Source of the DNA: a virus
Virus record (IMG/VR): IMGVR_UViG_3300017917_005112
Span: 1 to 55,586 of that record
Direction: 5' to 3' (one strand)
DNA: 55,586 bases
The notes under the pieces were generated by a model. That model was given only the letters and a program-made list of their open reading frames with translations. It ran no database searches and had not been told where the DNA came from. Positions 18,319-54,402 of this stretch are shown here, in pieces (within the stretch, counting starts at the first letter, position 1; each line of letters begins with the position of its first letter). A program made the position numbers and the translations under genes.

Positions 18319-20091
18319 ATGAGCGTTTGGGAAAAAAAATATAAATCACTGAAAGAATATTATAAAAATAAATATTCATCAGAATTTTATGATTTAGATA
18401 ATTATCAGATTGAAATAAATCCAGATGAAACCGAAGATCAAGTAAATTCATACACAAAAGAAAAACAAGAAGAAGAAATTATAAAATGCACAAATTCTTT
18501 TTCGTACTTTTGTCACAAATACATTAAAATTTTGCATCCAACTCAAGGTTTAATTCCATTTGTCATATTCAAATACCAAAGTCGTGTAATTAAAGATTAC
18601 GAAGATCATAGATTCAATATAATTTCAAAATTTAGACAGGGAGGTCTAACAACAGTAACATTGCTTTATTGTTTATACAAATGTTTATTTTCATTAGACT
18701 ATTCTACAATGTTAATTTCAAAATCTGATAGAGAAGCAGTAGAAGCTGGTTATATAGTTGACAGAGCAGTTGAATATTTACCATCTTGGCTAAAACCTGT
18801 AAAAGATGGCAAATGGAATGACCATCTTAAACAAATTACTGAAACTGGTGGTAGTCTTAGATTTTTCTCACCTGAAGCTGCTCGTGGTAAGTCAGTTGCT
18901 TTTATTTGTATTGATGAGGCAGCGTTTATTAATGACATGGAAACGCATTGGAAAGCTATGTATCCTGTGCTTGCTACTGGTGGTCGTTGCGCTATAGTTT
19001 CAACTGTTAATGGTACAGCAAATCATTATTACGAAATGTATATGGGAGCCAAAGAAGGTAGAAACAAATTTCATATTATTGATATTGATTATGATGAACA
19101 CCCATTTTATAACACCAAAATTAATCCAGAGTGGGCCGAAGAACAGAAAGCTCAGTTAGGCGAAAAAGGATTTTTACAAGAAATTCTGCGTGTTTTTCTT
19201 GGTTCAGGAGAAACTTACATTCCAGGCAAAGAGTTATCTCGTCTTGATCAAGAATTGAAAAACTCATATCCAAAAAGAAAGTTATTTTCAAAATATCAAA
19301 ATCAAGAAAGAAATGATGATCCTGATATAAATGATTCGAATAAAGGTGCTTTGTGGATTTGGCAAGAACCTGTAAGTGGTCATGAATACTTCTTTGGAAT
19401 TGATTGTAGCGAAGGAGTAGGCGCGGATAACTCTTGCATACAAATTATTGATACAGATACTCTAGAACAAGTTGGTGAGTTTTACAGTAATATTATAACT
19501 CCATACGAATTTGCACAGGTAGTTTATGAACTTGCGATATTTTATAATAACGCTTTGTTAATTATTGAAGATGCGTCTGCTGGATTATCAGTAATAAACA
19601 CACTGCAAAATGAGCTTTTTTACGAAAACTTTTATTACAGCCAAAGTAATACAAAAAATCCTAAAGTTGGAATTAAAACTACTGTAAGCACAAGACCACT
19701 TATACTTACATCTTTTCAAACTTGTATATTGCAAAAGACTTTAAAACTTAATTCAATTAGAGTTGTAAATGAAATGAAAACATTTGAATACAATTCTGTT
19801 ACTAAAAAACCAGAAGCACACAAAGGCAAACATGATGATGCAATTATGGCTCTAGCTATTGCCATGTATGTAATAAATTCACAAGGAAAAAATAATCCTG
19901 CCGGTTATAGTGAGTCTAGCAAAATAAAATCAAATAGTTTAATTCATCAACTTAAAAATGAAATTCACGAACAAAATTTACCTATTAGTAATTCTACAAA
20001 TGATCAAAATAAAATCAACTCAGAAAATATGGAAGAACTAATAAAGCTTTATAGACCCAAAGATTCTCTACTTAAAGAATTTGGTTGGTGA
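18319..20091 (+). CDS. Terminase large subunit
   Basis: 590 residues. ATPase: ISKFRQGGLTTVTL is the Walker-A region (Arg-Gln-x-Gly-x-T-T type), VAFICIDEAAFIND the Walker B with its catalytic Glu, and AIVSTVNGTANHYYE the coupling motif. Nuclease: FFGIDCSEGVGADNSCIQII carries the first Asp, LLIIEDASAGLSVINTL the second acidic site and KGKHDDAIMALAIAM the third. Length and order match T4 gp17 (610 residues). It pumps DNA into the prohead and cuts it. It is followed 2 bp later by the TPR-glycosyltransferase gene. No small terminase gene is seen nearby. Confidence 0.9.
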   Translation: MSVWEKKYKSLKEYYKNKYSSEFYDLDNYQIEINPDETEDQVNSYTKEKQEEEIIKCTNSFSYFCHKYIKILHPTQGLIPFVIFKYQSRVIKDYEDHRFNIISKFRQGGLTTVTLLYCLYKCLFSLDYSTMLISKSDREAVEAGYIVDRAVEYLPSWLKPVKDGKWNDHLKQITETGGSLRFFSPEAARGKSVAFICIDEAAFINDMETHWKAMYPVLATGGRCAIVSTVNGTANHYYEMYMGAKEGRNKFHIIDIDYDEHPFYNTKINPEWAEEQKAQLGEKGFLQEILRVFLGSGETYIPGKELSRLDQELKNSYPKRKLFSKYQNQERNDDPDINDSNKGALWIWQEPVSGHEYFFGIDCSEGVGADNSCIQIIDTDTLEQVGEFYSNIITPYEFAQVVYELAIFYNNALLIIEDASAGLSVINTLQNELFYENFYYSQSNTKNPKVGIKTTVSTRPLILTSFQTCILQKTLKLNSIRVVNEMKTFEYNSVTKKPEAHKGKHDDAIMALAIAMYVINSQGKNNPAGYSESSKIKSNSLIHQLKNEIHEQNLPISNSTNDQNKINSENMEELIKLYRPKDSLLKEFGW

Positions 20092-23427: not shown

Positions 23428-23886
23428 ATGGATGGGTTTAAGGAATTTTACTTACTAAACGAAAGACAGCAATTTGGAAAGTCAATGCTTTATCCTTTAG
23501 GGTATGGTGGATTAGGAAATTATCCTCCTTCATATATGATTCCAAGCCAAGCTGATGCAATTACTTACTTAACCGATGATGCTCGTCTATGGTCAATTTG
23601 GGAAAAAGCTCCATTCCCTATACATCATATAAAACCACATCCAGTTGCTCCTAAACCTCCAAAACTTGATGGTGAAATAATTCCTTGGAAAGATCACAAG
23701 AAGTTTCTCGCTAATGGTATGGTTGGTATTGAATCTGATATGCCTCCCGGCGAAGTTATTCCTTGGAATAAAAAAGACTGTTTACCTTGCACAGTTAAAG
23801 CCCCAGAAACACTTGATCCTCGACTTTGTGGAAAGAAAGCCGAGGATTCAGTGTGCAAGCATATGTGGAAGATGCCACCTTATTAA
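23428..23886 (+). CDS. Hypothetical protein with tag-like N-terminus
   Basis: 152 residues beginning MDGFKEFYLLNERQQF, which fits F-x-x-F plus L-x-Glu (candidate cleavage after LLNE). The body is Pro/Trp-rich with two similar pieces (DGEIIPWKDHKK and PGEVIPWNKKD) and six Cys near the C-terminus in pairs (CLPC, LCGKK, VCKHMW). A virion or packaged protein is plausible. No ribosome site is seen before the ATG. It ends 4 bp inside the convergent fibre gene. Confidence 0.55.
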   Translation: MDGFKEFYLLNERQQFGKSMLYPLGYGGLGNYPPSYMIPSQADAITYLTDDARLWSIWEKAPFPIHHIKPHPVAPKPPKLDGEIIPWKDHKKFLANGMVGIESDMPPGEVIPWNKKDCLPCTVKAPETLDPRLCGKKAEDSVCKHMWKMPPY

Positions 23887-25688
23887 ACAATTTCAAACCA
23901 TGACAAATCAGCTAAAACCTTAGTATTTGCTGATGTTGGTGCCATTGCTACAGTAAATACATCAGCAACGCCATTTATTGTTCTGCCTAATTGGAAATTA
24001 AATTCATTAATGTTTGTAATATCCAAAGCACCTTGTTTGTTTATATAACCACCAACTATATTGTTTCCGCTTCCACTTATTAGGCCAGTAGCAGATGTAT
24101 CGTATTGAACATTACCATTATAATGAGTAACCCAAGTTGCGCCACTAAGAGTCGGATTTAAAATAATTCTATATTGAATATCTTGATTGCTTGTTACAAT
24201 AGCATTTAAATTTGACGGGACAATAATTGAATCCAATCTTCCTGAAGCAAGACGAATTGAAATTATTGGATATAAAACATTATCAGTTGCCAAATTTTTT
24301 GCAGTTGTTCCCAAATCAACATTATATCTTCTGCTGAATCCTTCATAACCAGCTTCAGAAATAACACTGTTACAAATTTGTTTCAAATTACCAGATCTTG
24401 TAACTGCTGTTGTATTTGTAATTTCATATCTTAAAGGCAAACAAGCTGTTGTCATATATGTGCCACTAATTGGGCTTGTGCTAACAGGTGTATGCTTAAA
24501 TGTGTGACAGGAAACATATTGACCATTCAATACGAATCCTACTCTTACATCACCAACACCTAACCATTCAATATCGATGAAAAATATCATTGAACTGCTG
24601 AAATCATTTAGGGTGTAGCCACTAGGACCGTTTCCATTTAAGTTGTCAACATTCCAACTGCCTTTTGGCACTCTTTCTTCTGTCACGCTACCAGAAACGC
24701 TAGTTCTTAGTACGAAAGTTGGTGTTGTACCATTCATTTCAAAATAAATGCCATTATCGTCTCCGAAATAACCGCATCTCTGTCTCTGTCCTGTTTGTCC
24801 AGAACACATGGTAAAAGTGCTATAAATAAGCAATGATTTTCCGGGTTGGTAAGGCATAACTCGTTTGGTTTCTGTGACAACACTTGCACCAGATGTCAGA
24901 CTGGTGTTCATATTAACTAAACTTCCATTAATATCATAAGAAAAAGAACCGCCACCGCTTGTTACATAATCCCACTTATCATTAATTTGATAACGATGTT
25001 GGCTATCAAATAGAGTAAAAGGATTGCTTACTCTAAGTCTTCCAAAAGCATCAGTGCTTCCTCCTGCAAAAGTAACAGGAATGCCATTTCCACCAATTGA
25101 TCCTGAATTAATAGAAACAGGTAATGGATTTGTCGGACTTACTACTGCACCGCTATTAAGCAAAGTAATATTGCCAGATAAAACTCTTATATTGCCGGAA
25201 TTTACTACCGCATTAATGTTACCTGAGTTTATTACTGCATTTATATTACCTGAATTTATAGATGCAGTAACATTACCGGATGTAACAAATGCATTAATGT
25301 TGCCAGAGTTTACAACTGCGTTAATATTACCACTGTTTACAACAGCATTTATTTGACCAGACATCACATGGACTTCACCAGAATTTAGTCCAATCATTCC
25401 ACCAATTGGAAAAGGGTTGTTATAACCAACTGCACCGCTGGCTGTATAAATTGATGTATTGCCTGACAATAAAGCAAATGTGCCAGATGCAAAATTTACA
25501 TTCAAAGATCCTGAACTTAAAGTAACACTAGCTGAACCGATGTTGACAGGAAGTGGATTAGCATTGCTGACTTCTGTAGCCTCATCATTATCACCAAAAG
25601 CCATCTTTGTCTTTAGCCATTTAACATTACCGATTTGATCAGCAGCTAAAGGCATATCATGATCTGTTGCACGAAATGTATCTGCCAT
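23883..25688 (-). CDS. Large virion fibre / structural protein
   Basis: 601 residues. Residues ~110-175 are an 8-residue repeat (NSGNINAVV and variants) that probably forms a beta-helix or coiled shaft. It is followed by DAFGRLRVSNPFTLFDSQHR, a motif I recall in structural proteins of marine myophages. The C-terminal ~380 residues are Gly/Ser/Thr-rich beta. No Lys-rich bias, in contrast to the neighbours. AAGGTG lies upstream and a TTAATAAATA late-type box lies further up. Most likely a tail-associated fibre or head-neck protein. Confidence 0.75.
   Translation of the reverse strand: MADTFRATDHDMPLAADQIGNVKWLKTKMAFGDNDEATEVSNANPLPVNIGSASVTLSSGSLNVNFASGTFALLSGNTSIYTASGAVGYNNPFPIGGMIGLNSGEVHVMSGQINAVVNSGNINAVVNSGNINAFVTSGNVTASINSGNINAVINSGNINAVVNSGNIRVLSGNITLLNSGAVVSPTNPLPVSINSGSIGGNGIPVTFAGGSTDAFGRLRVSNPFTLFDSQHRYQINDKWDYVTSGGGSFSYDINGSLVNMNTSLTSGASVVTETKRVMPYQPGKSLLIYSTFTMCSGQTGQRQRCGYFGDDNGIYFEMNGTTPTFVLRTSVSGSVTEERVPKGSWNVDNLNGNGPSGYTLNDFSSSMIFFIDIEWLGVGDVRVGFVLNGQYVSCHTFKHTPVSTSPISGTYMTTACLPLRYEITNTTAVTRSGNLKQICNSVISEAGYEGFSRRYNVDLGTTAKNLATDNVLYPIISIRLASGRLDSIIVPSNLNAIVTSNQDIQYRIILNPTLSGATWVTHYNGNVQYDTSATGLISGSGNNIVGGYINKQGALDITNINEFNFQLGRTINGVADVFTVAMAPTSANTKVLADLSWFEIV
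25170..25363 (-). repeat. 24-bp tandem repeats coding for NSGNINAVV units
   Basis: About eight imperfect 24-bp units within the fibre gene, read on the minus strand as Asn-Ser-Gly-Asn-Ile-Asn-Ala-Val. Boundaries are approximate. Confidence 0.8.
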
Positions 25689-30822: not shown

Positions 30823-31779
30823 TTAATCTATTAGAACTTTGCCACGACTTTTCTGTAGTAAATCATGAAAAAGTGCTTCTATGTCAGAAAGTAAGGCGTT
30901 TATAGAAGTCTTAATTACGCCTCTATTGATAGGCTCTACATGATACTTTTCTGAAAAATTACTTATTTGTTCGATGTGTTCTTCATCAACTCTTGGTAAT
31001 TTACATCCGTTAAACATAAACCAAGTAAACACTTCGTACACAAATTCTTCTTTATTAATTAGTGGAGCAAATGATCTATCTAGTGGCATGTATGAATGCA
31101 TAGATATGTCAAATGTTTTTGCAGATCTAAATCTAAAAATATTTGACAAAAACATATTTCTTAATAATAGAAAATTTGGTAATTCTTCAACATTTTTAAA
31201 ATTTGGATTTTTATGTAAATACATAATTACACGATCATGATCTGGATAAAACCTTGCCGGTGCTAAAATATAATCAATTATTTCAGGATATGGTATAAAT
31301 ATATCTAGAAAATTAGAGTACATTCCTTGGATTTTACTCAGGTATTGTTTGGCATATCTAAATAAAGCATGACCCAAACCATGTATTATAATCCAGGGTT
31401 TCCAAACATCTCCACCACTTACTTGTTTAACATACACAATATCTTGTGGCGGTATTTTTTGAATATTAAAAAAATAATCCATGTATAATTTTTTCAGTAT
31501 ATTAATTTCTGTAATGTCTTGAGTTCTAACTATTTTTTTTGCGTCATTCTTAATTCCAAAATATATGTGAATAGGATAATCAGTATTTCTGTTTAATACT
31601 TCCACAAGTTTTGGTATAATTTTTGACTTTGCAAATTTTTTGAAATAATTTTTATTTGCTGTCACTTGTTTTTTATTTGCATATAAGTCTTGTTTCATAT
31701 TTAAAAATGACCACCCAGGAGTGATTGAAGCACCCCCATGACTTTGCAAACTTTCTAAAAACTCATAAAAATTTTTCAT
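30823..31779 (-). CDS. Tagged HGxxH paralogue family, member 1
   Basis: 318 residues. Tag: MKNFYEFLESLQSHGG with candidate cleavage after FLE. It is followed by GASITPGWSFLNMKQDLYA, HIYFGIKNDAKKIV, DIVYVKQVSGGDVWKPWIII, HGLGHALFRYAKQYL, then NKEEFVYEVFTWFMFNG and a C-terminal SRGKVLID. Five homologues occur in the window. HGLGH replaces the HExxH of gluzincins, losing the catalytic Glu but keeping both His, and the later E-x-x-x-E-V-F-T-W may hold a third ligand. Probably a metal-binding, non-peptidase or altered enzyme. It starts just 1 nt from the stop of the next gene upstream, so they form an operon. Confidence 0.65.
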   Translation of the reverse strand: MKNFYEFLESLQSHGGASITPGWSFLNMKQDLYANKKQVTANKNYFKKFAKSKIIPKLVEVLNRNTDYPIHIYFGIKNDAKKIVRTQDITEINILKKLYMDYFFNIQKIPPQDIVYVKQVSGGDVWKPWIIIHGLGHALFRYAKQYLSKIQGMYSNFLDIFIPYPEIIDYILAPARFYPDHDRVIMYLHKNPNFKNVEELPNFLLLRNMFLSNIFRFRSAKTFDISMHSYMPLDRSFAPLINKEEFVYEVFTWFMFNGCKLPRVDEEHIEQISNFSEKYHVEPINRGVIKTSINALLSDIEALFHDLLQKSRGKVLID

Positions 31780-31780
31780 A

Positions 31781-32602
31781 TTATTTTACTAAATTTGGGT
31801 TTATTACTTTCTTTTCAATTTTTTCAATAATTTCATTTCTAATCAATTCACTAAGTTCTTTTGATGTTTGCATGATCTTGATGTTGCTCTCATGTTCTTT
31901 TTCAATCATTTTATTAAATTTCTTTATGTAATTTCTTAAATCTTCATAAGTTTTGACTGTATTTATATCCCATCTAGAAATATAATTTTCTATTATGCTT
32001 TCATGATTGTCAAAATCAAATAATGAGGCAAGTTTTTGTGAATGGATATAAGGAACAAATTCATTGTTTGTTAAATTGTTATCTGCTACTGCAATTAAAT
32101 CATCTATTGTTTTTGGCTTATTATCAGGTTTTATCTTCCTGACAGCTGGACTATCAAGTAAATTATTGTACCATGCCATATAGTAAAATTCTTTGCTATT
32201 AGATTCTAACAAATTTATAAGAGAAGATAAATCACGAGAACAACACTCATCAAAAATTTTTAAATCATATTCAAATTTTTGTCTAAATAGATCATTTGTG
32301 TCTAGCTTATCACTATACTTGCCAATTAAATCCTGAATCACTTTAGATTTTACTTCATTAAAATTTTTATTTATAGATGGCCTTATTGCAGTATTAAAAA
32401 ATGACTTAGCTTCATTTGCAAATTTTTCAGGTGATGGGGTAGATTTGCTTACTTGCATACTAACGATTCTGTCTTTGGATGTTGTTGCTGGTTCCGATAA
32501 ATCTGAGCCAAGTATTTTTGAAGCTAACAATAATGCCAATCCTAATGATGATTCGTTTATTGTGTCTTTTTTATATTTTTTCCACTCAGAAAACTTTCTC
32601 AT
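31781..32602 (-). CDS. Tagged protein, unknown body
   Basis: About 273 residues from ATG 32602 (GAGGT before it; an upstream TTG is less likely). The tag is MRKFSEWKKYKKDTINESSL: F-x-x-W then I-N-Glu-Ser, with candidate cleavage after TINE. The following LGLALLLASKILG is hydrophobic, perhaps a membrane-active segment. The rest is helical and charged. A TACTAAATA box lies ~25 nt upstream. First gene of an operon with the HGxxH paralogue (1 bp apart). Confidence 0.6.
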   Translation of the reverse strand: MRKFSEWKKYKKDTINESSLGLALLLASKILGSDLSEPATTSKDRIVSMQVSKSTPSPEKFANEAKSFFNTAIRPSINKNFNEVKSKVIQDLIGKYSDKLDTNDLFRQKFEYDLKIFDECCSRDLSSLINLLESNSKEFYYMAWYNNLLDSPAVRKIKPDNKPKTIDDLIAVADNNLTNNEFVPYIHSQKLASLFDFDNHESIIENYISRWDINTVKTYEDLRNYIKKFNKMIEKEHESNIKIMQTSKELSELIRNEIIEKIEKKVINPNLVK

Positions 32603-32670: not shown

Positions 32671-33321
32671 ATGCCAAACTATTTCGGAACTAATGAAGTG
32701 TATCAAGGAATTAATCCATCTGGTAACAAAAAAGTTACAGGATGGAATAGTAGAAGCCCTATATTTGGCAAATTAATTGAATATGTGAAACCAAATGTTA
32801 TTATCGAAGTAGGTTCGTGGCTTGGAGCATCTGCAATTCAAATGGCCACACAATGTAAAAAATTATCACTAAAAACAAAAATATATTGTGTTGATACATG
32901 GCTCGGAGCAGAAGAATTTTGGACAACAGGAAAAGATCATAGTGCAAGAGATTTAAAACTTAAAAATGGATATCCGCAAGTTTATACTGAATTTCTTTCT
33001 AATATTGTTGAGTTTGGTTTTCAAGATGTGATAGTACCAATTCCAAACACAAGTTATATAGGTTCGATAATTTTCAAATATTATAAAATTAAAGCGGATT
33101 TAATTTATATTGACGCATCTCATGAATACGAAGATGTTAAAAGTGATATAAAAAGTTATCTAAAATTATTAAATCCAAATGGAGTAATTTTTGGTGATGA
33201 TATGACATGGCCAAGTGTAAGAAAAGCAGTAAATGAAGTCTTGCCAAATGAGTATGATTTATATGACAATAACTTTTGGATTTATGTAAAACCATCAATA
33301 ACAAAATACACTTTTGTTTAA
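32671..33321 (+). CDS. Class I SAM-dependent methyltransferase
   Basis: 216 residues. VIIEVGSWLGASAIQMATQ is motif I (E-x-G-x-x-x-G), IYCVDTWLGAEEFW motif II, ADLIYIDASHEYEDVKSDI motif III/IV, and LLNPNGVIFGDDMTWPSV the motif after it. This is the Methyltransf_24 arrangement (CmcI/sugar-methyltransferase group). Likely acts on a small molecule or sugar; it fits the glycan gene set. No tag at the N-terminus. Convergent with the tagged TGT-like gene (4-bp overlap). Confidence 0.75.
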   Translation: MPNYFGTNEVYQGINPSGNKKVTGWNSRSPIFGKLIEYVKPNVIIEVGSWLGASAIQMATQCKKLSLKTKIYCVDTWLGAEEFWTTGKDHSARDLKLKNGYPQVYTEFLSNIVEFGFQDVIVPIPNTSYIGSIIFKYYKIKADLIYIDASHEYEDVKSDIKSYLKLLNPNGVIFGDDMTWPSVRKAVNEVLPNEYDLYDNNFWIYVKPSITKYTFV

Positions 33322-34721
33322 TGAGGCATTATACCTCGTTTCCTATAATCTATTGCCAATTTATTTACTTCTTTCTCGTATTCAGGATCAACAGTAATTG
33401 TGTTATCTCTGACAGGATATTCTGGATGATAAGTTGATCTTGGCTCATATGAAAAATTATTTAAATACAATCTACGAAACAACTCATCATTTCTTGCAGG
33501 ATATCCGTTTTCATCTAATACTATGTTTCCATCTTTGTCAAATAGTACTACATCTTCAAAAGGTTCTCCAACATGATGCTTTGGCATAAATCTATCAAGT
33601 TCATACAAACTATCGCGATTAAGTTTAACACCATCTCTTAAAAGTTTTTTTATGTAGATATATCTTTTCTCATAAATATTTTGTGTTTGAATATCAACAA
33701 TTTTGTCAATTAAATGATCAACAACTTCTTTTTCTGTAATATGATTTTTTCTTAAAGATCCTTGTTTGTCTTTTTCTGTATAAGATCCATTAAACAACCT
33801 CTTAATTCTTTCATCATATTGTTTATCACTTTCTGATGGCATTCTTGGATGTTCTTTTATAATTTTAAATATTACTTCAGTTAGTTTGTATTTTAGAGTT
33901 GTCCCATCGACAGTTCCAACTCTCATAATACTAGCTTTATTCATTCTTTGTAATGTGTTCACTCTCCCCATGTGTACAGGCATATTTCTTTTCCTAGCTG
34001 CCTTGACAATTTCACGAACTTCATCTCCAGTTTTCCAGTCAGTACTTCCACCTATAAATATCGCATCAATTCCATCCCAAGGTATATTCCCAACATCTGC
34101 GCCATCTTGAACGCATAAAGCAGCAGGGGCACCAATTTGCCTAAGTTTATCAACATCTTTCTTGTGAGCATGATATTTTGTCAAAGTAGCTTTCCAATCA
34201 AATGGCTGATCAGGTATGGCAAAAAATTGTAAAGAATCCAAAACACCAACTTTAACTTGTGCCATAGCAAATTTTATCATTTTTTTATAAATATCCCAAT
34301 CAAAGTTTTCTCTTCCCGCTTCAGAAAACATTCCATTATCAATCCCTATAGCATCATAATTTTTTAATACCTTTGAATACAAATATCTATAAGTCAAAGG
34401 AGTTACTAACAAACCAAGATAGCTTTTACCTGTTTCCTCTCTTCTATTATCAGATGCTTTTGCCAATGCTTCCGAATGTTGACCACTTAAATATACAGTT
34501 GGATCACCTAATTTAGCAGGATAAACAAATTCTTCTTTATGAGTATGCGGAGCTAATAATTTAACATAATCAGATAATAATGAATTAAATTTTTCCTGTG
34601 TAACGCTTGGATTCTTAATAGAATCTAAAATTATATCTTCGAGTGTTTTTTCAGCTGGAGAAACTGATTCTATCAAAGCAACTTTATTTCCATTTTTAAT
34701 CCAGTCAAAGAAATTTTTCAT
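33318..34721 (-). CDS. Tagged TGT/DpdA-like protein
   Basis: 467 residues. Tag: MKNFFDWIKNGNKVALIESV, F-x-x-W-I then L-I-Glu-Ser. The central ~200 residues look like a TIM barrel related to tRNA-guanine transglycosylase and phage DpdA: YDAIGIDNGMFSEAG, LQFFAIPDQPFDWKATLTKY, PAALCVQDGADVGNIPWDG, DAIFIGGSTDWKTG and MPVHMGRVNTLQRM, ending VGTVDGTTLKY. DpdA inserts 7-deazaguanine bases in DNA. The C-terminal ~150 residues are unassigned, and no preQ0 genes are in the window. TATATAAAG abuts the ATG and no ribosome site is seen. Alternatively a sugar-cleaving barrel paralogue. Confidence 0.65.
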   Translation of the reverse strand: MKNFFDWIKNGNKVALIESVSPAEKTLEDIILDSIKNPSVTQEKFNSLLSDYVKLLAPHTHKEEFVYPAKLGDPTVYLSGQHSEALAKASDNRREETGKSYLGLLVTPLTYRYLYSKVLKNYDAIGIDNGMFSEAGRENFDWDIYKKMIKFAMAQVKVGVLDSLQFFAIPDQPFDWKATLTKYHAHKKDVDKLRQIGAPAALCVQDGADVGNIPWDGIDAIFIGGSTDWKTGDEVREIVKAARKRNMPVHMGRVNTLQRMNKASIMRVGTVDGTTLKYKLTEVIFKIIKEHPRMPSESDKQYDERIKRLFNGSYTEKDKQGSLRKNHITEKEVVDHLIDKIVDIQTQNIYEKRYIYIKKLLRDGVKLNRDSLYELDRFMPKHHVGEPFEDVVLFDKDGNIVLDENGYPARNDELFRRLYLNNFSYEPRSTYHPEYPVRDNTITVDPEYEKEVNKLAIDYRKRGIMPH

Positions 34722-36462: not shown

Positions 36463-37854
36463 TTATGATCTTTCATCCCACCTTGGATTTAATTCTCTGG
36501 TTCTCACATATGATCCAAATGAATTTCTATCGCCACGAACAACTGTATCGTAATAGTCTAATAGTTCATCCAAATATTCCTTTCTCTCATCTTTATTCAA
36601 TTCAAAATAAAAATCTAATAAACTTTCAGCATCATGATTTTTAGATCTAAGATCAGCACAAATATCTCTTCTTACATCAATAAAAATATTAGCTAATCTT
36701 TCTTTAATATTTTCTGGTACATCTTTGAACTTTTCTTCAACATATCTATTTGGACTAAAAATAAAAGTTAACATTTCTTTTTCACTATCTGGATAATGTT
36801 TGTACATGGTTTCTTTAACAAAAATTTCTGGCCCAATTATTCTGGCTCTTACAACCAAATCATTCATATTCATGTGTTTGAATGTTATTTTTTCTCTAGG
36901 AGATAAACCATCAATTTTTTCCAACCTTTCAACTTCATGTACAGCATTACTTACCCATAATGTAGGATTAGGATTTAAAAGAATTGATTTTAAATCATTC
37001 TCTTTATGAGGAACGCCATAAAACAATATGTCATCTATCGGCTTCTTACTAGACATTATTTCATCTTTGTGTGAATTAATTTTTTCATGAATCAGTTTTT
37101 TTGTCTGATCATTCAAAAGATTCTTTATAGCTGCTAACCTTACACCAATTTCATAAGGTGCTTGCATATATTGTTTGTGACCTTCTGGAGTACTAGTTGG
37201 GCCTTTTAAATGATGTCTTCTATGTTTTGGCGTTTTACTCAATTCTTGTGTTGTGTGCCTTAACTCATGAGCCAATGCTTCTGCTCCACGTTTAGTTAAT
37301 AAACCATCGTTTGTTTCTGTGGGCAAAATATTATACGCGCTTTTAGGCATAACTATATAATAACCTGATGATGAAGCATAAGCATAAGCATCAGGGTGCC
37401 TTTTTTTTAAAGCCTCATCTGTAACAACAAACAAAGTTACTGGCTTCATAAACTTATATTTCCATGTAGAAAAGCCAATATCTTTATCAGGAGGTTTTAA
37501 ATTCTCAAAATCTCTATCAAATTTCTTAGGATCACTCTGCGCTGATCTTATCAAATCATATGGAACGACATTCTCTTTCCTGAAAACCAACTCATCTTCA
37601 TTAAATGCAGAAGAAGGAGAGGAAGGAGAAGAAGGAGAAGAAGGAGAAGAAGGAGAAACATTCGTAACACTAGGTTTTAGCTTTGGTTTATTATAAGCCT
37701 GATAACCACTACCCAATACAGCAGCACCCATACCCAAAGCTGCTACAGGCCCAGCAATACTACCAAGCTTCTCAGTAGTATTAAAAAAAGTTTCATCCAA
37801 TAATTCACAAAAATTAGGATCTACATCAAGTAGAAATTCAGAAAATGTATTCAT
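36463..37854 (-). CDS. Tagged HExxH metallopeptidase
   Basis: 463 residues. Tag: MNTFSEFLLDVDPNF...ELLDETF, F-x-x-F-L with candidate cleavage after LLDE. Then a hydrophobic stretch (GSIAGPVAALGMGAAVLGSG), and a Ser-Pro repeat linker encoded by 9-bp repeats (37610-37660). The catalytic part has AEALAHELRHTTQELSKTP (HExxH) and APYEIGVRLAAIKN, a candidate third ligand. The C-terminal ~200 residues are helical. The hydrophobic segment could insert in the inner membrane on ejection. A GATAAATA box lies 7 nt before the ATG and there is no ribosome site. Confidence 0.7.
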   Translation of the reverse strand: MNTFSEFLLDVDPNFCELLDETFFNTTEKLGSIAGPVAALGMGAAVLGSGYQAYNKPKLKPSVTNVSPSSPSSPSSPSSPSSAFNEDELVFRKENVVPYDLIRSAQSDPKKFDRDFENLKPPDKDIGFSTWKYKFMKPVTLFVVTDEALKKRHPDAYAYASSSGYYIVMPKSAYNILPTETNDGLLTKRGAEALAHELRHTTQELSKTPKHRRHHLKGPTSTPEGHKQYMQAPYEIGVRLAAIKNLLNDQTKKLIHEKINSHKDEIMSSKKPIDDILFYGVPHKENDLKSILLNPNPTLWVSNAVHEVERLEKIDGLSPREKITFKHMNMNDLVVRARIIGPEIFVKETMYKHYPDSEKEMLTFIFSPNRYVEEKFKDVPENIKERLANIFIDVRRDICADLRSKNHDAESLLDFYFELNKDERKEYLDELLDYYDTVVRGDRNSFGSYVRTRELNPRWDERS

Positions 37855-37953: not shown

Positions 37954-39213
37954 TTACATAAAGAACCAACTTTTTGCTTCATGTTTTGGCGTTCCATAAC
38001 TAGATTCTTCGCTTTTGGTTTCCATCGTCTTAGTGTCTATGTATTCTATAAACATTTTAGCAGTATCTCTGATAACTTGGTCATTTTTGCTGATGTTGTC
38101 TGGATCGGAAACCCAAATTGACAAATACACTTCTGCATGACCAACTGGCAAACCATAGTGATGACAAACAAGATAAGCAACTCCTTCAGCTTGAAGTTCC
38201 ATGACTTCTTTAGACAGCGTTCTTCTTTTCTCTGCTGTGTGAAGTAATTCATGTGCCAATTCATGAATCATAGTGCTAATATTTTCTTGTAGCAATTGAA
38301 TTTCACCTTTTCGTGACACACCTCTGGCACCATGCAAACCCTCTGCGCTTACTGAATATTGAATATTGTGTTCTTTTGCAAATTCAATTAGAGCATCATA
38401 AATGTAACGAGTAACATTATCGGGTGTATCTTCACTAAACCAAGTTGGCTCTTTCACATTGTAAAGATTTTCTTTGCCTGGAATTGGCTCTGTATCAGCG
38501 ACATCAAAAACATTACCGAGAATGAAACCTGTTGGATGCTTGACTTCATCTTGATTAGTGTCATGCTCAGGAGCATCTTCTGTAGCTTTGTCTTTACTTG
38601 ATGCATATATGATAGGAACCCAAATCTTAATGGCCTTCGCACCTTTTTTGACTTTTCTGCCAAATTTCTCTCTCCAAGTCTTCATGCCCTCGACTTGTGT
38701 TGCGTTCATGCGTTGAGAATAGATGAGCAGTTTATTATTAAAACTTCTTTTGGTAAACCTGAGTGAAAATTCAAGAAATTGCCGAACTTCAGGATCATCT
38801 TTTTTCTCAACAATCTTTTTCTTGAGTTGTTCAAATACTTCCTTCAGTCTATCAATTACGCCTAGTTCTGTGTATTCTTCAAGTTCTGCAGATAATTGAA
38901 CAAAAGTTGCTGGATCAAAATCAGCATTAATGGCGTGAACTTTTCTCCTCAATTCAGGCATCTTATTATTGAATTCTACGGGATCAAGTGCTTCTGGTGA
39001 AATCCATTTGCTCAGATTTCTGTCCCACACAAAACCAAGAGATTTGATTTTGTCTTTATTTTTGTAGGTTTCGTTGCCTGCCATTTTTTTGTCTTCTATA
39101 TCACTATCAACTACAAATTGAGCCTTGCCGTCAGGGTTTGTCCTTTTTTTAAGCACAAGACTTTCATCAATCTGCTTGTACTTTAACCAATTGATAAATG
39201 ATTTAAGTGACAT
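37954..39213 (-). CDS. Tagged ArdC-like antirestriction protein
   Basis: 419 residues. Tag: MSLKSFINWLKYKQIDESLV, F-x-x-W-L then I-D-Glu-Ser, candidate cleavage after QIDE. The ArdC N-terminal ssDNA-binding domain is recognisable in FTKRSFNNKLLIYSQRMNAT, GMKTWREKFGRKVKKGAKA and IKIWVPIIYA. The C-terminal zinc peptidase domain has STMIHELAHELLHT (HExxH) and KEVMELQAEGVAYLVCHHYG (third ligand Glu), the IrrE/ImmA pattern. Plasmid ArdC enters with conjugated DNA and protects it from restriction. In a phage, a packaged copy would act like T4 IPI* or P1 Dar proteins. 4 bp upstream is another tagged gene. Confidence 0.75.
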   Translation of the reverse strand: MSLKSFINWLKYKQIDESLVLKKRTNPDGKAQFVVDSDIEDKKMAGNETYKNKDKIKSLGFVWDRNLSKWISPEALDPVEFNNKMPELRRKVHAINADFDPATFVQLSAELEEYTELGVIDRLKEVFEQLKKKIVEKKDDPEVRQFLEFSLRFTKRSFNNKLLIYSQRMNATQVEGMKTWREKFGRKVKKGAKAIKIWVPIIYASSKDKATEDAPEHDTNQDEVKHPTGFILGNVFDVADTEPIPGKENLYNVKEPTWFSEDTPDNVTRYIYDALIEFAKEHNIQYSVSAEGLHGARGVSRKGEIQLLQENISTMIHELAHELLHTAEKRRTLSKEVMELQAEGVAYLVCHHYGLPVGHAEVYLSIWVSDPDNISKNDQVIRDTAKMFIEYIDTKTMETKSEESSYGTPKHEAKSWFFM

Positions 39214-39217
39214 AATA

Positions 39218-39748
39218 TTACCTTTGAATTTTCCTGCTTTTTTTTATAAACTCTTGTCGTAAAAAATTTAATTCTATCATTTCGTGGGCAGAAAGTTCGC
39301 CAATTTTAAATAATTCTTCTATAGCGTTTAATGCATTATGGCAATCCGACAACTCTATATTTGCTTGATCAATAAATGCTTCTACTTGATGCTCGCCGTT
39401 TACAAATATACAAGACCAAACATTTTTTGTTTTATTGGTCATGTCTTCTAAAATTTCTGCTAAAAAAAACGTATGTGCTGCTTCTTCATTTTCACATATG
39501 ATTCTTATAAGTATACTAGCCAGAAATTCTCCTTCTTTCTCCAAACAATCAGCTAACACACCTAGTTGCCATAATTCATCAGGATTAGATAGTACATAAC
39601 CAGTTTTAGGTCTTTCATGTAAATTTTCATCCCAAGGAACAAAAGCATCATTTAGAATCTTGTTAATTATTGCTACCCGAGTATTGTTTGCACTTTCTTT
39701 GATGATGTTATTTTCAATGTTTTTAATATATTCTTTAAAATTTTTCAT
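39218..39748 (-). CDS. Tagged protein, unknown body
   Basis: 176 residues. Tag: MKNFKEYIKNIENNIIKESA, F-x-x-Y-I then I-K-Glu-Ser. The body is helical with several Cys and Glu-rich segments (ELWQLGVLADCLEKEGEFL, NEEAAHTFFLAEILEDM). Overlaps the promoter space of nothing else; it starts the operon that continues into the ArdC-like gene (4-bp gap). A TGTAAATA box lies about 28 nt upstream. Function unknown; coupling with ArdC suggests a partner role in protecting the incoming genome. Confidence 0.6.
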   Translation of the reverse strand: MKNFKEYIKNIENNIIKESANNTRVAIINKILNDAFVPWDENLHERPKTGYVLSNPDELWQLGVLADCLEKEGEFLASILIRIICENEEAAHTFFLAEILEDMTNKTKNVWSCIFVNGEHQVEAFIDQANIELSDCHNALNAIEELFKIGELSAHEMIELNFLRQEFIKKSRKIQR

Positions 39749-39799: not shown

Positions 39800-40324
39800 C
39801 TAAGATTTAGTGCGAGGTGGTCTTCTTTCTATTTCAATTTCAGGTTCAGATGAAGTTTCAGGTTTAGTAGAATTTCTGGATTTTGATCTTAAAGTATTTC
39901 CATCATTTATTATAATTCTATTAGTTCTCGTAGCAAACCTTTGCAATATGGCATCCCAAGCACCTTTTGCTTTAGGAAACAAACTAAGTAATTCATTCCT
40001 TACTTGACTAATAAAAATATCTTTATCGCGATGCGCACTTGAATTAATAATATTTATTCTATGGAACAACTCATTCCCCATCCAATCCATAAGTTTCTTA
40101 TCTAAAATAAGACTGCGTTCTTCTTGATCAGTAAATCTTGTTTTAGGGTTTGCTCTTACCAAATTTTCTAAAATATTTAAACCACGATCAGAAAATCTGA
40201 TTGTTATATGATGCTTGCCAATATATGTTTCGAAGAATTTTGTACCAGGAATATATTTATCATCAAACAATTCATTAAAAACATTCGCATCCCTATTGTG
40301 TAGCCATTCGTTAAAAGTTGACAT
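39800..40324 (-). CDS. Tagged protein, unknown body
   Basis: About 174 residues from ATG 40324, which has GGAG 6 nt before it; an earlier ATG is ignored. Tag: MSTFNEWLHNRDANVFNELF, almost the same as the tag of 49759 (KNTFNELFE), with candidate cleavage after FNE. The body has KFFETYIGKHHITIRFSDRG and a Lys/Arg/Pro-rich tail ending ERRPPRTKS, perhaps DNA-associated. A GTAAATA box lies ~30 nt upstream. Confidence 0.6.
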   Translation of the reverse strand: MSTFNEWLHNRDANVFNELFDDKYIPGTKFFETYIGKHHITIRFSDRGLNILENLVRANPKTRFTDQEERSLILDKKLMDWMGNELFHRINIINSSAHRDKDIFISQVRNELLSLFPKAKGAWDAILQRFATRTNRIIINDGNTLRSKSRNSTKPETSSEPEIEIERRPPRTKS

Positions 40325-40416: not shown

Positions 40417-41337
40417 ATGCTAGATTTTTATAATTTTTTGGAAGCACTTAAAAGTGTTGGAGGATTTGGTATAACTCCTGGTTGGAATCCTGAGACAAAA
40501 AATTTACATCCAGATAAATATACTGATCCAGTGCAGGTAAAACACTTCTTGGCTATGGCAAAAAAACCAAGTGAAGAAAAAGGAATTATAGCAAAACTAG
40601 ATGACATATTTCAAAGAAAAGGTCACATAGAACAAAAAGATTTAGATATTCATATTTATTTTGGTTCTATGAGCTTAAATTCCTTTCCAGAAGAAGTTAA
40701 AGGCAGAAGTCTTTATCAAAAATACCAAAACTATTTTTTTAATTATCTTAAAATACCTAAAACAGATATTGTATACATAAAAACTGTACCAGGTGGTGAT
40801 GTTTGGAAACCTTGGATTGTTATTCATGGTTTAGCACACGCAATTTATTATGATAAAGTTGTGAATAATCATCTAGAACTTACTAAAATATATTCGATTT
40901 ACAATTTATTTAATGACTTTTTTAGTAATTTAATGCCTCCATTATTTTTTGATAAACTCAAAAAACGAGGTTATTATTCTGATTTACTTGATCAAATGAT
41001 CGTTGATGTAAGCACTCGTATAGATTTTATTGCTCCTGTATTTAAATTTAAATCAGCACAACAAAGTGAAATAAGTGGTCCAGGTGAACCCAAAAAATTT
41101 GGTGGTTTAACAGACAAACAAGAATTTATTTTTGAAGTTTTTACTTGGTACATATGGAATGGACAAAAATTACCAAGGCCTCAGATTTCAGATTTCGTAA
41201 AAAGTAAGTATTCAACTCTTTTCGATTATAAAAGCCCAGAACAATTTGTGGAAGCATTTAACGAACTATTCACTCAATTAGAAGATATATTCAGAAGTGA
41301 TTTAGATAAAATAAAAGGTCATGTTGTCATAGATTGA
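40417..41337 (+). CDS. Tagged HGxxH paralogue family, member 2
   Basis: 306 residues. Tag: MLDFYNFLEALKSVGG, then FGITPGWNPETKNLH. Conserved blocks: DIHIYFGSMSLNSF, DIVYIKTVPGGDVWKPWIVI, HGLAHAIYYDKVV, KQEFIFEVFTWYIWNGQKLP and KIKGHVVID. The HGLAH motif holds two His with Gly in place of the catalytic Glu. It has diverged from member 1 mainly in the central helices. Read from a TATAAATA box 5 nt before the ATG. Function unknown. Confidence 0.65.
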   Translation: MLDFYNFLEALKSVGGFGITPGWNPETKNLHPDKYTDPVQVKHFLAMAKKPSEEKGIIAKLDDIFQRKGHIEQKDLDIHIYFGSMSLNSFPEEVKGRSLYQKYQNYFFNYLKIPKTDIVYIKTVPGGDVWKPWIVIHGLAHAIYYDKVVNNHLELTKIYSIYNLFNDFFSNLMPPLFFDKLKKRGYYSDLLDQMIVDVSTRIDFIAPVFKFKSAQQSEISGPGEPKKFGGLTDKQEFIFEVFTWYIWNGQKLPRPQISDFVKSKYSTLFDYKSPEQFVEAFNELFTQLEDIFRSDLDKIKGHVVID

Positions 41338-44042: not shown

Positions 44043-45206
44043 ATGAAAACATTTTATACTTGGTTAGAATCAAAACTTCACGAAGTCCTAGGTTCAGTCG
44101 GAGGATATCCAGTACAACACGCAATTACTCAAAAACTAGCCAACGAACCACCTCAAGATGATTATTCTTGGTCATCACAATTCGGACCAAATTATGATGA
44201 CGAATACAGAAAACATATGCCACCAATACAAAACATAAACAAAGATGCAGTAATAAAAAGATTCGGGAAAAATGCTTGGGATCACGGTTTTAAAGATTCT
44301 GATCAGAAAATAATCGAAAATCCCAGAAACTTTGAACTAATAATGTCCAAACTTGAAAAAAAATTGGCAAAACTCGATTTTGCTAACATACACTTTTATT
44401 TTGGCAGACCCGTCGATGAAAGGTTTAGAGACTTTGATAAAACAGAAAATGGATATAGACTAATTCAAAATTATTTTTTCGGTCGTGATGGATTAAACAT
44501 ACCAGAAAATGACATCGTTTATATCAAATTAGGAACTATTGCCGATCCACTAACACCTTGGCTCATATTACATACATTCGCTCATGGCATAATGGACACA
44601 AGAAACTATGAATTCAGAAATTATAGATTCAAAGAAGATGTAAGAGATGCATTTGATATGGTTAGAAAATTTTTTATGGATATTATTCCAAAAAGTTTTC
44701 AAGAACACCCATCCCTTGAACTTCAAGCTAAAATAGATTATCACAAAAAAGAATTGGAAGATTTAAGATCAAGACCAGAAAGAAACCCAGAAATATACAA
44801 AAATAATGTAAATTATGCTAAACAAGAATTTTTAAGAACCATAAGCCCTTCTGTAAAATTTTCAGAAGTTCTATACACATTGTTTCCAAAAATTTGGAGC
44901 TTCGCAGAACTACACAAAATTGCAAGCAACGCCAGCAATTATAAATTTATAAAATCAAAAATGGACTTATACGGATCATTGAACATGAATGAAATTACTT
45001 TTGAAATATTCGTATACTGGCTACAATCTGGTGGACAATTTTTGATAAATGGCGCACAAGTCAAAAACAAATTAAAAGAATTAGCATCAGAAGTAAATTT
45101 CGATTTTATTGATAATAATTTAGAAAAACAATTAAATAATATTTCAAATCAATTCAGACAAATTATAGAACATTGCAAAGGCGAAGTAATATATGATAAA
45201 AGATAA
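44043..45206 (+). CDS. Tagged HGxxH-family, divergent branch member 3
   Basis: 387 residues. Tag: MKTFYTWLESKLHEVLGSVG, F-x-x-W-L then L-H-Glu. Family blocks: NIHFYFGRPVDERF, DIVYIKLGTIADPLTPWLIL, HTFAHGIMDTRNY, MNEITFEIFVYWLQSGGQFL and CKGEVIYD. HTFAH replaces HGLxH. It forms a tandem pair with 45269, identical over about 50 bp in places (e.g. around 44330-44380), so the duplication is recent or homogenised by gene conversion. CATAAATA ends 6 nt before the ATG. Confidence 0.65.
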   Translation: MKTFYTWLESKLHEVLGSVGGYPVQHAITQKLANEPPQDDYSWSSQFGPNYDDEYRKHMPPIQNINKDAVIKRFGKNAWDHGFKDSDQKIIENPRNFELIMSKLEKKLAKLDFANIHFYFGRPVDERFRDFDKTENGYRLIQNYFFGRDGLNIPENDIVYIKLGTIADPLTPWLILHTFAHGIMDTRNYEFRNYRFKEDVRDAFDMVRKFFMDIIPKSFQEHPSLELQAKIDYHKKELEDLRSRPERNPEIYKNNVNYAKQEFLRTISPSVKFSEVLYTLFPKIWSFAELHKIASNASNYKFIKSKMDLYGSLNMNEITFEIFVYWLQSGGQFLINGAQVKNKLKELASEVNFDFIDNNLEKQLNNISNQFRQIIEHCKGEVIYDKR

Positions 45207-45268
45207 TAAATAATACATAAAAATTATGAAAATATATATTGATGAATTTAATTTTTTTTTGGAACCTT

Positions 45269-46387
45269 ATGAAAACATTCTATAATTGGCTGGAATTAAA
45301 ACTTCATGAAGTCCTCGGTTCAGTAGGAGGATATCCAGTACAACACGCACTAGCACTAAAAGCAGCAAACGAACCACCTCGAGATTATTCTAGGGTATCA
45401 TACTTCGGACCAAATTATCATGATGAACATGAAAAAATAAAAGAAATAGATAAAGATGCAGTAATAGATAGATTCGGGAAGAATGCATGGGATCATGGTT
45501 TTAAAGGTCCAGATAAAAAAATAATTGAAAATCCCAGAAACTTTGAACTAATAATGTCCAAACTTGAAAAAAAATTGGCAAAACTTGATTTTGTCAATAT
45601 ACACTTTTTTTTCGGAGAACCAGTTGATAAAAGATTTGCATATTTTTACACAAGAGAAGAAGGATACAGAGAAACTGAAAATTACTTTTTTGGTCATGAC
45701 GGATTAAACATATCCAAAAACGATATTGTTTATATTAAACCAAATACTGCTGCCGATCCACTAACACCTTGGCTAATATTACATACATTTGTACATGGTA
45801 TGATGGATTTAACACAGTTTAGAGATCTTAATCATAAACGGGATGCAAATGACGCACATCGTTTAGTATGTGAATTTATTGACAAAATTCTTGCAAAAAT
45901 GGTAATAGGTAACCCAGCTAGACAACTTCAATCTGCAATAGATGATCACAAAAAAGATTCAAAATACTTTAATTATTATGTTAATCCCGATGCTCTTATA
46001 AAAGATTTCAAATATAGTATAAAAGATTATGTGAAATTTTCTGAAGTTTTATACATACTTTTCCCAAAAATCTGGAGTTTTGCAGAATTCCACAAAATTG
46101 CAAGCAATGCTATTAATTATAAATTCATAAAATCAAAAATGAGATTATACAATTCGTTAGATAACCGTGAAATTACTGTCGAATTATTTGTGTATTGGTT
46201 GCAAAATGGAGGAAAATTACCAATAATTGATGCTGATTATAAGAACAAACTAAAACAAGTAGTAGATTCAAAAGGATTCGATTTTATTGATAATGATTTA
46301 GAAAAAGAATTAAATAATATTTCAAATCAATTCAGAAAAATTATAGAACATTCTAGAGGCAAAGTAATATATGATTCAAGAGAATAA
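45269..46387 (+). CDS. Tagged HGxxH-family, divergent branch member 4
   Basis: 372 residues from ATG 45269 (an in-frame ATG at 45239 is less likely: GGAAC precedes 45269). Tag: MKTFYNWLELKLHEVLGSVG. Blocks as in member 3: NIHFFFGEPVDKRF, DIVYIKPNTAADPLTPWLIL, HTFVHGMMDLTQF, NREITVELFVYWLQNGGKLP and SRGKVIYD. HTFVH keeps both His of the motif. Tandem duplicate of 44043 with patchy near-identity. Confidence 0.65.
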   Translation: MKTFYNWLELKLHEVLGSVGGYPVQHALALKAANEPPRDYSRVSYFGPNYHDEHEKIKEIDKDAVIDRFGKNAWDHGFKGPDKKIIENPRNFELIMSKLEKKLAKLDFVNIHFFFGEPVDKRFAYFYTREEGYRETENYFFGHDGLNISKNDIVYIKPNTAADPLTPWLILHTFVHGMMDLTQFRDLNHKRDANDAHRLVCEFIDKILAKMVIGNPARQLQSAIDDHKKDSKYFNYYVNPDALIKDFKYSIKDYVKFSEVLYILFPKIWSFAEFHKIASNAINYKFIKSKMRLYNSLDNREITVELFVYWLQNGGKLPIIDADYKNKLKQVVDSKGFDFIDNDLEKELNNISNQFRKIIEHSRGKVIYDSRE

Positions 46388-46420: not shown

Positions 46421-47869
46421 TTATCCAAAAGCCCTTATGTCATATAAAAATGTATAAAGTCCCTCAAAGCCTTTACGATAATTGTTACTCATCACAATTT
46501 CTCCTAATGAAGACAAACCACCATTAAACGGTTGATCATGAGTATTAGAAGTAATATCACTTAGTTTTTTGTTTTTATATTGATTAACAATATTTAACAC
46601 CGACCTAAATTTACTGCCAAGCCACAAAGCGGTACGATTCAAATTATTATTTTCAGCATATTTGTATTTAGAATAATTGTCACTAAAAGTAAAATAAGGA
46701 ACTTCATTTTCCTCCAAATATCGCAATAAATAATCTTTCAAATCCCCAACAGTCCTGTCTTTTAAGTAATCAACTATTCTCTGCTCTTTCATCGCCCTGA
46801 ATCTTTGCATCAACGAAGGGGGCAATTGTTTTCTTGTATCTGAAATATTTCCTTTCTCATATGGAACTGGCTTATCAGAAATTCTTATCCTGTTACCAGA
46901 CATTCTTGTAAAATACACTTCGCTAATATTCGACTGACTGAAAACACCTCTCAAATTTTCTGTGAATTTTATTTGCATCTTACTACGAGCCAACCTAGGA
47001 AGCATAAGATAATATTGAATCATTTCAATAAATTTTTTTGGATTATTAATTATTTCACTACTTAAATACCTAAACTCAATAGTTCCATTAGTCACAAAAG
47101 ATTTTAAATTCGTTCCACCATACTTACTTAAACCATAATTACCCCGTGAAAAATCAAAAATATTCCTCATAACACTATCTGAAACAATTATGTTAGATAA
47201 ATCAAAATCTTTTTTTATAATTCCTTTTGTGTAAAGCTGATCCATAATTACATTTAAAACTGTTCCCCTATCTTTTGTCCATCTAATATCACGATCAGCA
47301 CCAGCTACCTCATATGCACTCTCTTCATCAATTAAATTCAATGTCGCTAATGCATCAAACGCATTCATATCATCAAAATGCTGCAACCCAATATGAACAT
47401 GAGCAGAACATGATGGACTCAAGGAAAGATATCTTTTGTTTTGACCATATATTGCTATTCCCTCTGTTACACATTCTTTTATTTCTTCCAAAATGTTCAA
47501 CAAATCAGGAATATCTTTTGTAGTTAAGTATTTGCTTCTAACCTCAGTATTTGAAACATCAGGTCCAATTCCCCATGTAGTCTCAGAACCCTCTTCCCCC
47601 TCAACCTCTTGATTATTCATTACCAAAATTTTTCTTAAAATTTTAATATTATCTGCATGGTTGTATAACACATCATTGGGAATAGAAGGATTTCTCAAAT
47701 CTCTTTTTGTAACACCTTCATTAACATCAGCCGGAAACTCCAACTCAATTCCAAATGTTCCCGGACTATAACCACCACTTTTTCTTATGGCACGACGAAC
47801 TCTACTAGCAGAAGATAATTTAATTACTTCATCAAATCTGAATTTAAAATAATCATAAAAATTATTCAT
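46421..47869 (-). CDS. Tagged amidoligase-like enzyme
   Basis: 482 residues. Tag: MNNFYDYFKFRFDEVIKLSS, F-x-x-Y-F then F-D-Glu. The catalytic core has the three marks of the amidoligase (COOH-NH2 ligase) family: TFGIELEFPAD (E-x-E near the start), CSAHVHIGLQHF (H-x-H), and NGTIEFRYLSSEI (E-F-R). Such enzymes join carboxylates to amines, in phages perhaps crosslinking peptides or cell-wall parts. The C-terminal ~190 residues are unassigned. If tagged and injected, a cell-wall or protein modification after entry would be the idea. No ribosome site seen. Confidence 0.75.
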   Translation of the reverse strand: MNNFYDYFKFRFDEVIKLSSASRVRRAIRKSGGYSPGTFGIELEFPADVNEGVTKRDLRNPSIPNDVLYNHADNIKILRKILVMNNQEVEGEEGSETTWGIGPDVSNTEVRSKYLTTKDIPDLLNILEEIKECVTEGIAIYGQNKRYLSLSPSCSAHVHIGLQHFDDMNAFDALATLNLIDEESAYEVAGADRDIRWTKDRGTVLNVIMDQLYTKGIIKKDFDLSNIIVSDSVMRNIFDFSRGNYGLSKYGGTNLKSFVTNGTIEFRYLSSEIINNPKKFIEMIQYYLMLPRLARSKMQIKFTENLRGVFSQSNISEVYFTRMSGNRIRISDKPVPYEKGNISDTRKQLPPSLMQRFRAMKEQRIVDYLKDRTVGDLKDYLLRYLEENEVPYFTFSDNYSKYKYAENNNLNRTALWLGSKFRSVLNIVNQYKNKKLSDITSNTHDQPFNGGLSSLGEIVMSNNYRKGFEGLYTFLYDIRAFG

Positions 47870-50437: not shown

Positions 50438-50581
50438 ATGAAAATCATCGCATTTGACACATTCGGAACTGTATTTAACACAAACCATATATCCAACCAA
50501 GACATTTCCTACTACGCAAACATCATCATATTCACACATCCAACTGTCCGTATCAGATACAATCAATCTACCACAACATGA
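50438..50581 (+). pseudogene. Truncated copy of the HAD gene
   Basis: MKIIAFDTFGTVFNTNHISN and QDISYYANII match the first 30 residues of the HAD protein at 43477 with 2 differences. After this it turns into unrelated IFTHPTVRIRYNQSTTT and a stop inside the convergent gene end. The DNA copies differ at several third positions, so the duplication is not very recent. The join is near 50528. Confidence 0.75.
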
Positions 50582-53994: not shown

Positions 53995-54402
53995 ATGAAA
54001 ACATTCTATCAATTTATAAAACAAAAAAATATTCAAGAAAGTTATAAAGATATAGCTCTAAATATCGCTGACGCACTCACAGGACTAGCAGGAATAGATG
54101 CAAATTCATTAACCAACTCAGCAGCAAATACAAACCTAAATAATATAAAAACAGCTCTCCAACATATGTATAACCAAGTTTCACCACACCTATTTCTAAC
54201 ACCTAAAGAAAAAATTACACTTACGAATACTTGCTTCTCTGAACTACAACCAGGCAAAAATTTTCTTCAAGACAAAACAAATATGATAAATGCCTGCAAA
54301 AGACTATGCGATGTAGAAAAAAATGTAAAAGCTTGCGCCAAAGTAGGTATCAAAGTAGACTCAAGAGGAAGAAGAAAAATAACAAACCCATTAAATAAAT
54401 AA
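53995..54402 (+). CDS. Tagged protein, unknown body
   Basis: 135 residues. Tag: MKTFYQFIKQKNIQESYKDI, F-x-x-F-I then I-Q-Glu-Ser, candidate cleavage after NIQE. The body is helical and small, with NIADALTGLAGIDANSL and four Cys near the C-terminus (TCFSELQPG, ACKRLCDVEKNVKACAK) that might form two disulfides. AATAAATA ends 6 nt before the ATG. Confidence 0.6.
   Translation: MKTFYQFIKQKNIQESYKDIALNIADALTGLAGIDANSLTNSAANTNLNNIKTALQHMYNQVSPHLFLTPKEKITLTNTCFSELQPGKNFLQDKTNMINACKRLCDVEKNVKACAKVGIKVDSRGRRKITNPLNK

Follow-up and report, generated by a model that had tools for sequence, protein, structure and literature searches.

A phage ArdC with a T4-like N-terminal leader is a candidate virion-packaged anti-restriction protein

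Introduction

Can an ArdC anti-restriction protein travel in the head of a phage? The question is raised by a gene in IMG/VR virus record IMGVR_UViG_3300017917_005112, whose product had been predicted to be an ArdC-like protein bearing a head tag. We analyzed this record over 55,586 nucleotides, a stretch hereafter called the window.

Packaged anti-restriction proteins are already known from T4 and P1. T4 packages the anti-restriction proteins Ip1-3 (PMC12373910). The leaders of the T4 internal proteins, 10-20 residues in length, bring the cargo into the core and are removed by gp21 (PMC5694885, PMC9026906), which cleaves after L/I-X-E (PMC9026906). The packaged anti-restriction proteins of P1 are DarA and DarB, the latter with a packaging signal at its N-terminus (PMC9024508). 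Iyer et al. 2017 also predicted that phage polyvalent proteins are packaged and injected, and listed ArdC-N among their domains, mainly for conjugative elements (PMC5512222). In the open-access literature searched, we came across no ArdC described with a capsid targeting leader of the T4 type.

Plasmid ArdC represents another strategy. The R388 protein targets HsdRMS, does not need protease activity for anti-restriction, and must be expressed in the recipient; ArdC produced in the donor gave no help, with export not ruled out in that study (PMC7213743). The original prediction had taken it as established that plasmid ArdC enters the recipient during conjugation, a point that proves to be disputed when the R388 data (PMC7213743) are read with Iyer et al. 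(PMC5512222).

Results and Discussion

The window gene encodes an ArdC with an N-terminal extension

The predicted open reading frame lies exactly at 37954..39213 on the minus strand and encodes 419 amino acids from an ATG start (first residues MSLKSFINWLKYKQIDES). This start codon agrees with the alignment to relatives that keep the leader in the same position. By sequence, the product is an ArdC. The ArdC-N DNA-binding domain (PF08401) covers residues 123-225 (38539..38847, minus strand) with a score of 24.6 bits against the Pfam cut-off of 22.6, and the same model matches 10 of the 11 extended forms tested. A zincin metallopeptidase domain follows at about residues 266-400 (38014..38418, minus strand). 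It was aligned to R388 ArdC (6SNA/6I89) through a family profile of 38 sequences (alignment A3), which matches these crystal structures at 1.7e-9 and pairs the HELAH zinc motif at residues 317-321 (38251..38265, minus strand) with HEATH of R388 ArdC. Within A3, His317, Glu318 and His321, as well as the later Glu339 and Glu343, are invariant. PHROG 7245, annotated as an anti-restriction protein, matches residues 145-402 (E=2.5e-10), and by tblastn 2,016 plasmid records contain similar proteins, the best E among the matches listed being 9e-26. The family assignment of the original prediction thus holds, based on the ArdcN score, the HELAH motif and the profile match to R388 ArdC.

Other searches were less informative. 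Peptidase_M78 matches weakly over HELAH, under its Pfam cut-off; an NCBIfam search returned a chance match only; and an earlier profile of five sequences matched no ArdC structure. The first structure model (five sequences) was poor, with a pLDDT of 48, and had R388 ArdC 6SNA as its top PDB match (E=0.048). A second model reached a pLDDT of 80, and there was no ArdC among the 50 PDB matches listed for it.

Two elements precede the known domains. Residues 1-17 (MSLKSFINWLKYKQIDE; 39163..39213, minus strand) form the proposed capsid targeting sequence, with cleavage predicted after Glu17, at IDE/S (QIDE/S, the slash marking the cut), from the L/I-X-E motif described for T4 (PMC9026906). Residues 18 to about 95 (38929..39162, minus strand), starting with SLVLKKR, form an extra domain that has no match in Pfam and was seen only in leader-bearing phage ArdCs. 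The chain contains two known domains plus this extra one. It resembles polyvalent proteins in combining ArdC-N with an MPTase domain, whereas leaders, protease sites and T4-like carriers are not mentioned in the passages of Iyer et al. 2017 consulted.

The original prediction had proposed looking for a tagless version in plasmids, and this comparison was carried out. In an alignment with the window protein, three plasmid ArdCs and one from a Gordonia phage begin at its residues 94-113 or thereabouts, lacking both the leader and the extra domain of ~75 residues. Likewise, none of the best 80 cellular relatives aligns before residue 99. The window protein shares with the R388/pSa type the order of ArdC-N and zincin domain and the HExxH motif with its later Glu (6SNA/6I89 at about 2e-9), and differs from the aligned plasmid ArdCs, which come from other plasmids, in its leader and ~75-residue domain. 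Plasmid ArdC also differs in being delivered by, or expressed after, conjugation.

A common leader opens many genes of the window and of a related contig

The window is AT-rich (30% GC). A terminase large subunit at 18319..20091 on the plus strand (PHROG 2, 4.6e-45) indicates a tailed phage, and the relatives of a virion structural protein at 23883..25688 on the minus strand (PHROG 1645) are found chiefly in Synechococcus phages and cyanophages. Genes for gp21 and gp23 were not found in this 55.6 kb window, which is a fragment.

From a gene list made by hand (69 ORFs, with starts mostly placed at the first ATG), we derived the tag pattern [FY]..[WFY][LIMVF] shortly after the N-terminal Met. 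This pattern opens 21 of the 69 window genes, compared with 2.6% of internal positions in the same proteins (binomial p=3e-17), and it follows an internal Met in 3 of 234 cases. The pattern was picked after viewing the window, and a test in an independent sequence therefore carries weight. Such a test was provided by contig G007, which was located through the structural protein at 23883..25688 (its counterpart is 80% identical). In the fetched parts of G007, the unchanged pattern opens 20 of 88 ORFs (p=5e-17). G007 encodes gp21 and gp23, and the ORFs near them resemble the T4-like gp20-gp21-gp22-gp23 order, with gp20 and gp22 assigned by size and place only. Although related to the window phage, this contig was returned by none of the ArdC scans.

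The tags have the same shape as the leaders of T4 internal proteins, which in NC_000866 read MKTFKEFTSTTTPVSTITE for ipI and MKTYQEFIAE for ipII and ipIII. Several of the leaders in the window close with I-x-E-S or a similar sequence (IDES in ArdC, then INES, IKES, IQES and LIES), and [LIAV]xE[SATNKLGD] occurs within residues 8-24 of 8 of the 21 tagged leaders (p=0.054). The T4-type late-promoter motif TAAATA is weakly enriched before tagged genes (p=0.058 in the window, p=0.002 in G007). Behind the tags, the protein bodies mostly have no detectable similarity to one another, the exception being one family of five paralogues. The original prediction is supported as regards an ArdC-family protein whose leader looks like a T4-type capsid targeting sequence; the proposed partner gene found no support, and the premise on plasmid transfer is disputed.

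The supposed partner (39218..39748, minus strand, start MKNFKEYIKNIENNIIKES) lies 4 bp upstream of the ArdC gene, is tagged, and is likely co-transcribed with it, yet none of the loci retrieved around other ArdCs was found to contain a homologue. Further tagged genes on the minus strand are found at 39800..40324 (start MSTFNEWLHNRDANVFNE); at 36463..37854 (start MNTFSEFLLDVDPNFCELLDE), downstream of ArdC and carrying HELRH; at 33318..34721 (start MKNFFDWIKNGNKVALIES; PHROG 15826, of unknown function); and at 46421..47869 (start MNNFYDYFKFRFDE), whose product is amidoligase-like. The gene at 31781..32602 (minus strand, start MRKFSEWKKYKKDTINES) was recognized by eye and falls narrowly outside the pattern, and that at 53995..54402 on the plus strand (start MKTFYQFIKQKNIQES) has a form near T4 ipI.

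The window-derived pattern is lineage-specific. It opens 3 of 93 ORFs in contig G001, the leaders of which it does not describe; a second motif, fitted by eye to G001 and hence of descriptive value only, opens 6 of 93 (p=0.001).

Extended ArdCs retain a cleavage-type site while their leaders diverge

The comparison with relatives gives the strongest evidence on the leader. The closest relatives of the tagged ArdC, on IMG/VR contigs of up to 144 kb, are 56% identical to it, and their leader MSFYEFYNSIINE/NLVLKKR can be set against MSLKSFINWLKYKQIDE/SLVLKKR of the window protein, with the body starting at the same place. A wider scan yielded 75 viral loci, 33 of which align from residue 35 or before. 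For closer comparison we used a set of 18 extended ArdCs, comprising the window protein and 17 from phage contigs. The sequence [ILVM]-x-E stands directly ahead of the conserved strand in 18 of 18, compared with a background of 2.3% of positions inside these proteins, but because the 18 are related sequences, per-sequence site probabilities cannot be multiplied into a p-value. The site Glu has an entropy of 0 and P3 is always L, I, V or M, whereas the remaining leader positions range from 2.4 to 3.2 bits. The leaders, 11-88 residues long, have diverged past alignment, and the site has been retained. Four relatives with 41-88 residues before the site may have wrongly assigned starts or leaders of another kind. 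Because the conserved strand follows immediately, a structural reason for the invariance of this Glu is conceivable.

A protease that might act at this site is encoded by related phages. Peptidase_S77 (gp21) was found in G001, G003, G005, G007, G016, G018, G021, G024, G027 and G028, with a partial copy in G002; leaving the partial copy aside, the prohead-protease gene is present in several ArdC carriers. When major capsid proteins are aligned to locate their cleavage site, the LTE of T4 falls roughly at FNE in G007 and has no obvious counterpart in G001. As a positive control, we looked among the tagged proteins of the relatives for an established virion enzyme of the Alt kind, and none was found. 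Neither an isolated or cultured phage with an extended ArdC, in the phage collection searched, nor existing virion proteomics of a carrier was found.

ArdC leaders resemble other N-termini of the same phage

In several carriers, proteins encoded near ArdC open with the leader that ArdC has. Across 12 phages, the ArdC leader matches the N-termini of 7.4% of ORFs in its own phage and 3.2% in other phages (permutation p=0.005). The match is clear for the window, G015, G016, G017 and G023, and is missing for others (G020, G021, G028), perhaps partly because only 20 kb were read for most phages. In G017, the ArdC leader MKIRLTESQINYLVENIKDIDE has neighbors that begin with MKKIKITENQLKKLVENKNKKAIQE, MKKIILTESQVKSVINNFINE and MKKYIFTENQIKKIINHQLNE, examples of this type being MKIRLTESQ, MKKIKITENQ and MKKIILTESQ. 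Similarly, MRDVDTIILENLYKELL of the G015 ArdC recurs as MRDNDTLILETLYRDILLLE in a neighbor, and MKYIKLFEQW of the G023 ArdC as MKYIKLFENY.

A model for packaging and delivery, and its alternatives

These features (ArdC membership, the common leader, the conserved L/I-x-E-type site, a gp21 gene in relatives and the own-phage leaders) can be read in the sequences themselves. From them we infer packaging, cleavage, injection and an anti-restriction function: with a probability of about two in three, the window protein is an internal head protein of the T4 IPI type that has an ArdC for its body, is cut by gp21 and enters the cell by injection to counter restriction. The 17-residue leader would take ArdC into the prohead scaffold core, and a gp21-type prohead protease would then cut behind Glu17. 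Mature ArdC, of about 402 residues, would remain among the packaged DNA and be ejected together with it. The ArdC-N domain would bind the entering DNA and guard it against the restriction enzymes of the host, with perhaps the largest effect while the DNA is single-stranded or in early replication. As in R388 ArdC, protection may not need the zincin domain, which might alternatively act on a host protein.

The last point leads to another reading, in which ArdC is packaged and cleaved in the same way but, once injected, acts as a zinc metalloprotease on a host protein, either of defence or of housekeeping, and provides no DNA shield. In keeping with this reading, the HExxH motif and later Glu are invariant in A3, and HExxH is also present in the window genes at 36463 and 48533, which have tag-like starts. 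Moreover, effector proteases are allowed for among polyvalent-protein domains by Iyer et al. 2017 (PMC5512222), and the ArdC-like proteases of some jumbo phages have been proposed to cleave host proteins (PMC7824862). We nonetheless judge a purely proteolytic role less likely, since the extended members keep the DNA-binding domain as well, as judged by the ArdcN matches above, and anti-restriction by R388 ArdC does without the protease (PMC7213743).

Less probable still is that the leader serves as some other sorting or assembly tag, or as a structural helix, and that ArdC is active only within the infected cell after late expression. The tag does sit on many proteins of unassigned function, and in G001 a protein that opens with the leader type of that contig looks endolysin-like. 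However, the leaders are similar to those of T4 internal proteins, the L/I-x-E-type site is present throughout the extended set, gp21 is found in related phages, and leaders change with the phage while bodies stay similar. Chance, or shared descent of AT-rich genes, might also give a common N-terminus without any role, given that hydrophobic starts are frequent in a genome of this composition. We consider this explanation close to negligible: it is refuted by the counts in the window and in the independent contig G007, with positions inside these proteins as the baseline, and most tagged bodies, apart from the five paralogues, show no detectable similarity.

The packaged anti-restriction factor that we favor would be closest in kind to T4 IPI, IPII and IPIII. 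These also have a short leader (M-K-T-F/Y-x-E-F) with an L/I-x-E site, unrelated bodies behind a common leader, several members per phage, and an anti-restriction role, which for the window ArdC is proposed. The T4 proteins differ in their small size and in specifically inhibiting type IV GmrSD enzymes, whereas the window body has ~400 residues and consists of an ArdC-N and a zincin domain. T4 Alt is likewise a large enzyme that is packaged and injected by the route proposed here, but it is an ADP-ribosyltransferase with another function. P1 DarA and DarB are head-borne anti-restriction proteins acting on injected DNA, as is proposed for the window ArdC; DarB, by contrast, is a methylase-helicase of about 250 kDa, and P1 is not T4-like and uses a different signal.

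More broadly, we lean slightly towards the view that T4-like and jumbo phages carry one ArdC lineage as a dedicated cargo of their virions, its body and cleavage site being kept and its leader swapped for the private code of each phage, and that the window phage delivers some twenty proteins, including ArdC, by the same code. If so, one protein would combine two ways of resisting restriction, the ArdC of plasmids and the head-borne proteins of T4, and large T4-like phages would carry DNA protection in the particle, ahead of any gene expression. A packaged ArdC would be on hand from the start, whereas R388 ArdC needs expression in the recipient. Leader and x-E site are readable in sequence, and genomes alone might therefore suffice to list the proteins that uncultured phages inject.

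Additional tagged and ArdC-containing proteins

The window gene at 48533-49576 combines its tag-like start with HEVLH. Together with HELRH at 36463-37854, this suggests that the proposed cargo may hold several metallopeptidases. The five paralogous tagged proteins (30823-31779, 40417-41337, 44043-45206, 45242-46387 and 50563-51480), which are 24-64% identical, constitute the largest tagged family of the window.

Six loci (L062, L072, L076, L077, L079 and L081) encode proteins of 821-1088 aa that have ArdC in the C-terminal part and starts like MKKIKITKEQYNRIAGLLTE. Their contigs reach 362 kb, and two of them carry gp21. At five others (L130, L134, L135, L137 and L139), the neighbor of the fused ArdC has a start resembling MDKxIIKxxLxxRFxxE, which may be a further type of leader in these phages. 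Directly behind the ArdC gene of G001, the ORF at L001:11244-12080 begins much as a leader does (MKSFENFYENYTNES), and its C-terminal part resembles an endolysin (PHROG 7, 9.6e-11).

In G007, three tandem paralogous ORFs at L042:7651-13422 (567, 621 and 725 aa) carry M[RH]FK[QE]WLLLSE, a leader of the head type. Pfam identifies the first as an ankyrin-repeat protein, and the trio may therefore be packaged ankyrin proteins. Tandem paralogues are also seen in the window at 13141-13737 and 13759-14355, which encode proteins of 198 aa each that are 57% identical.
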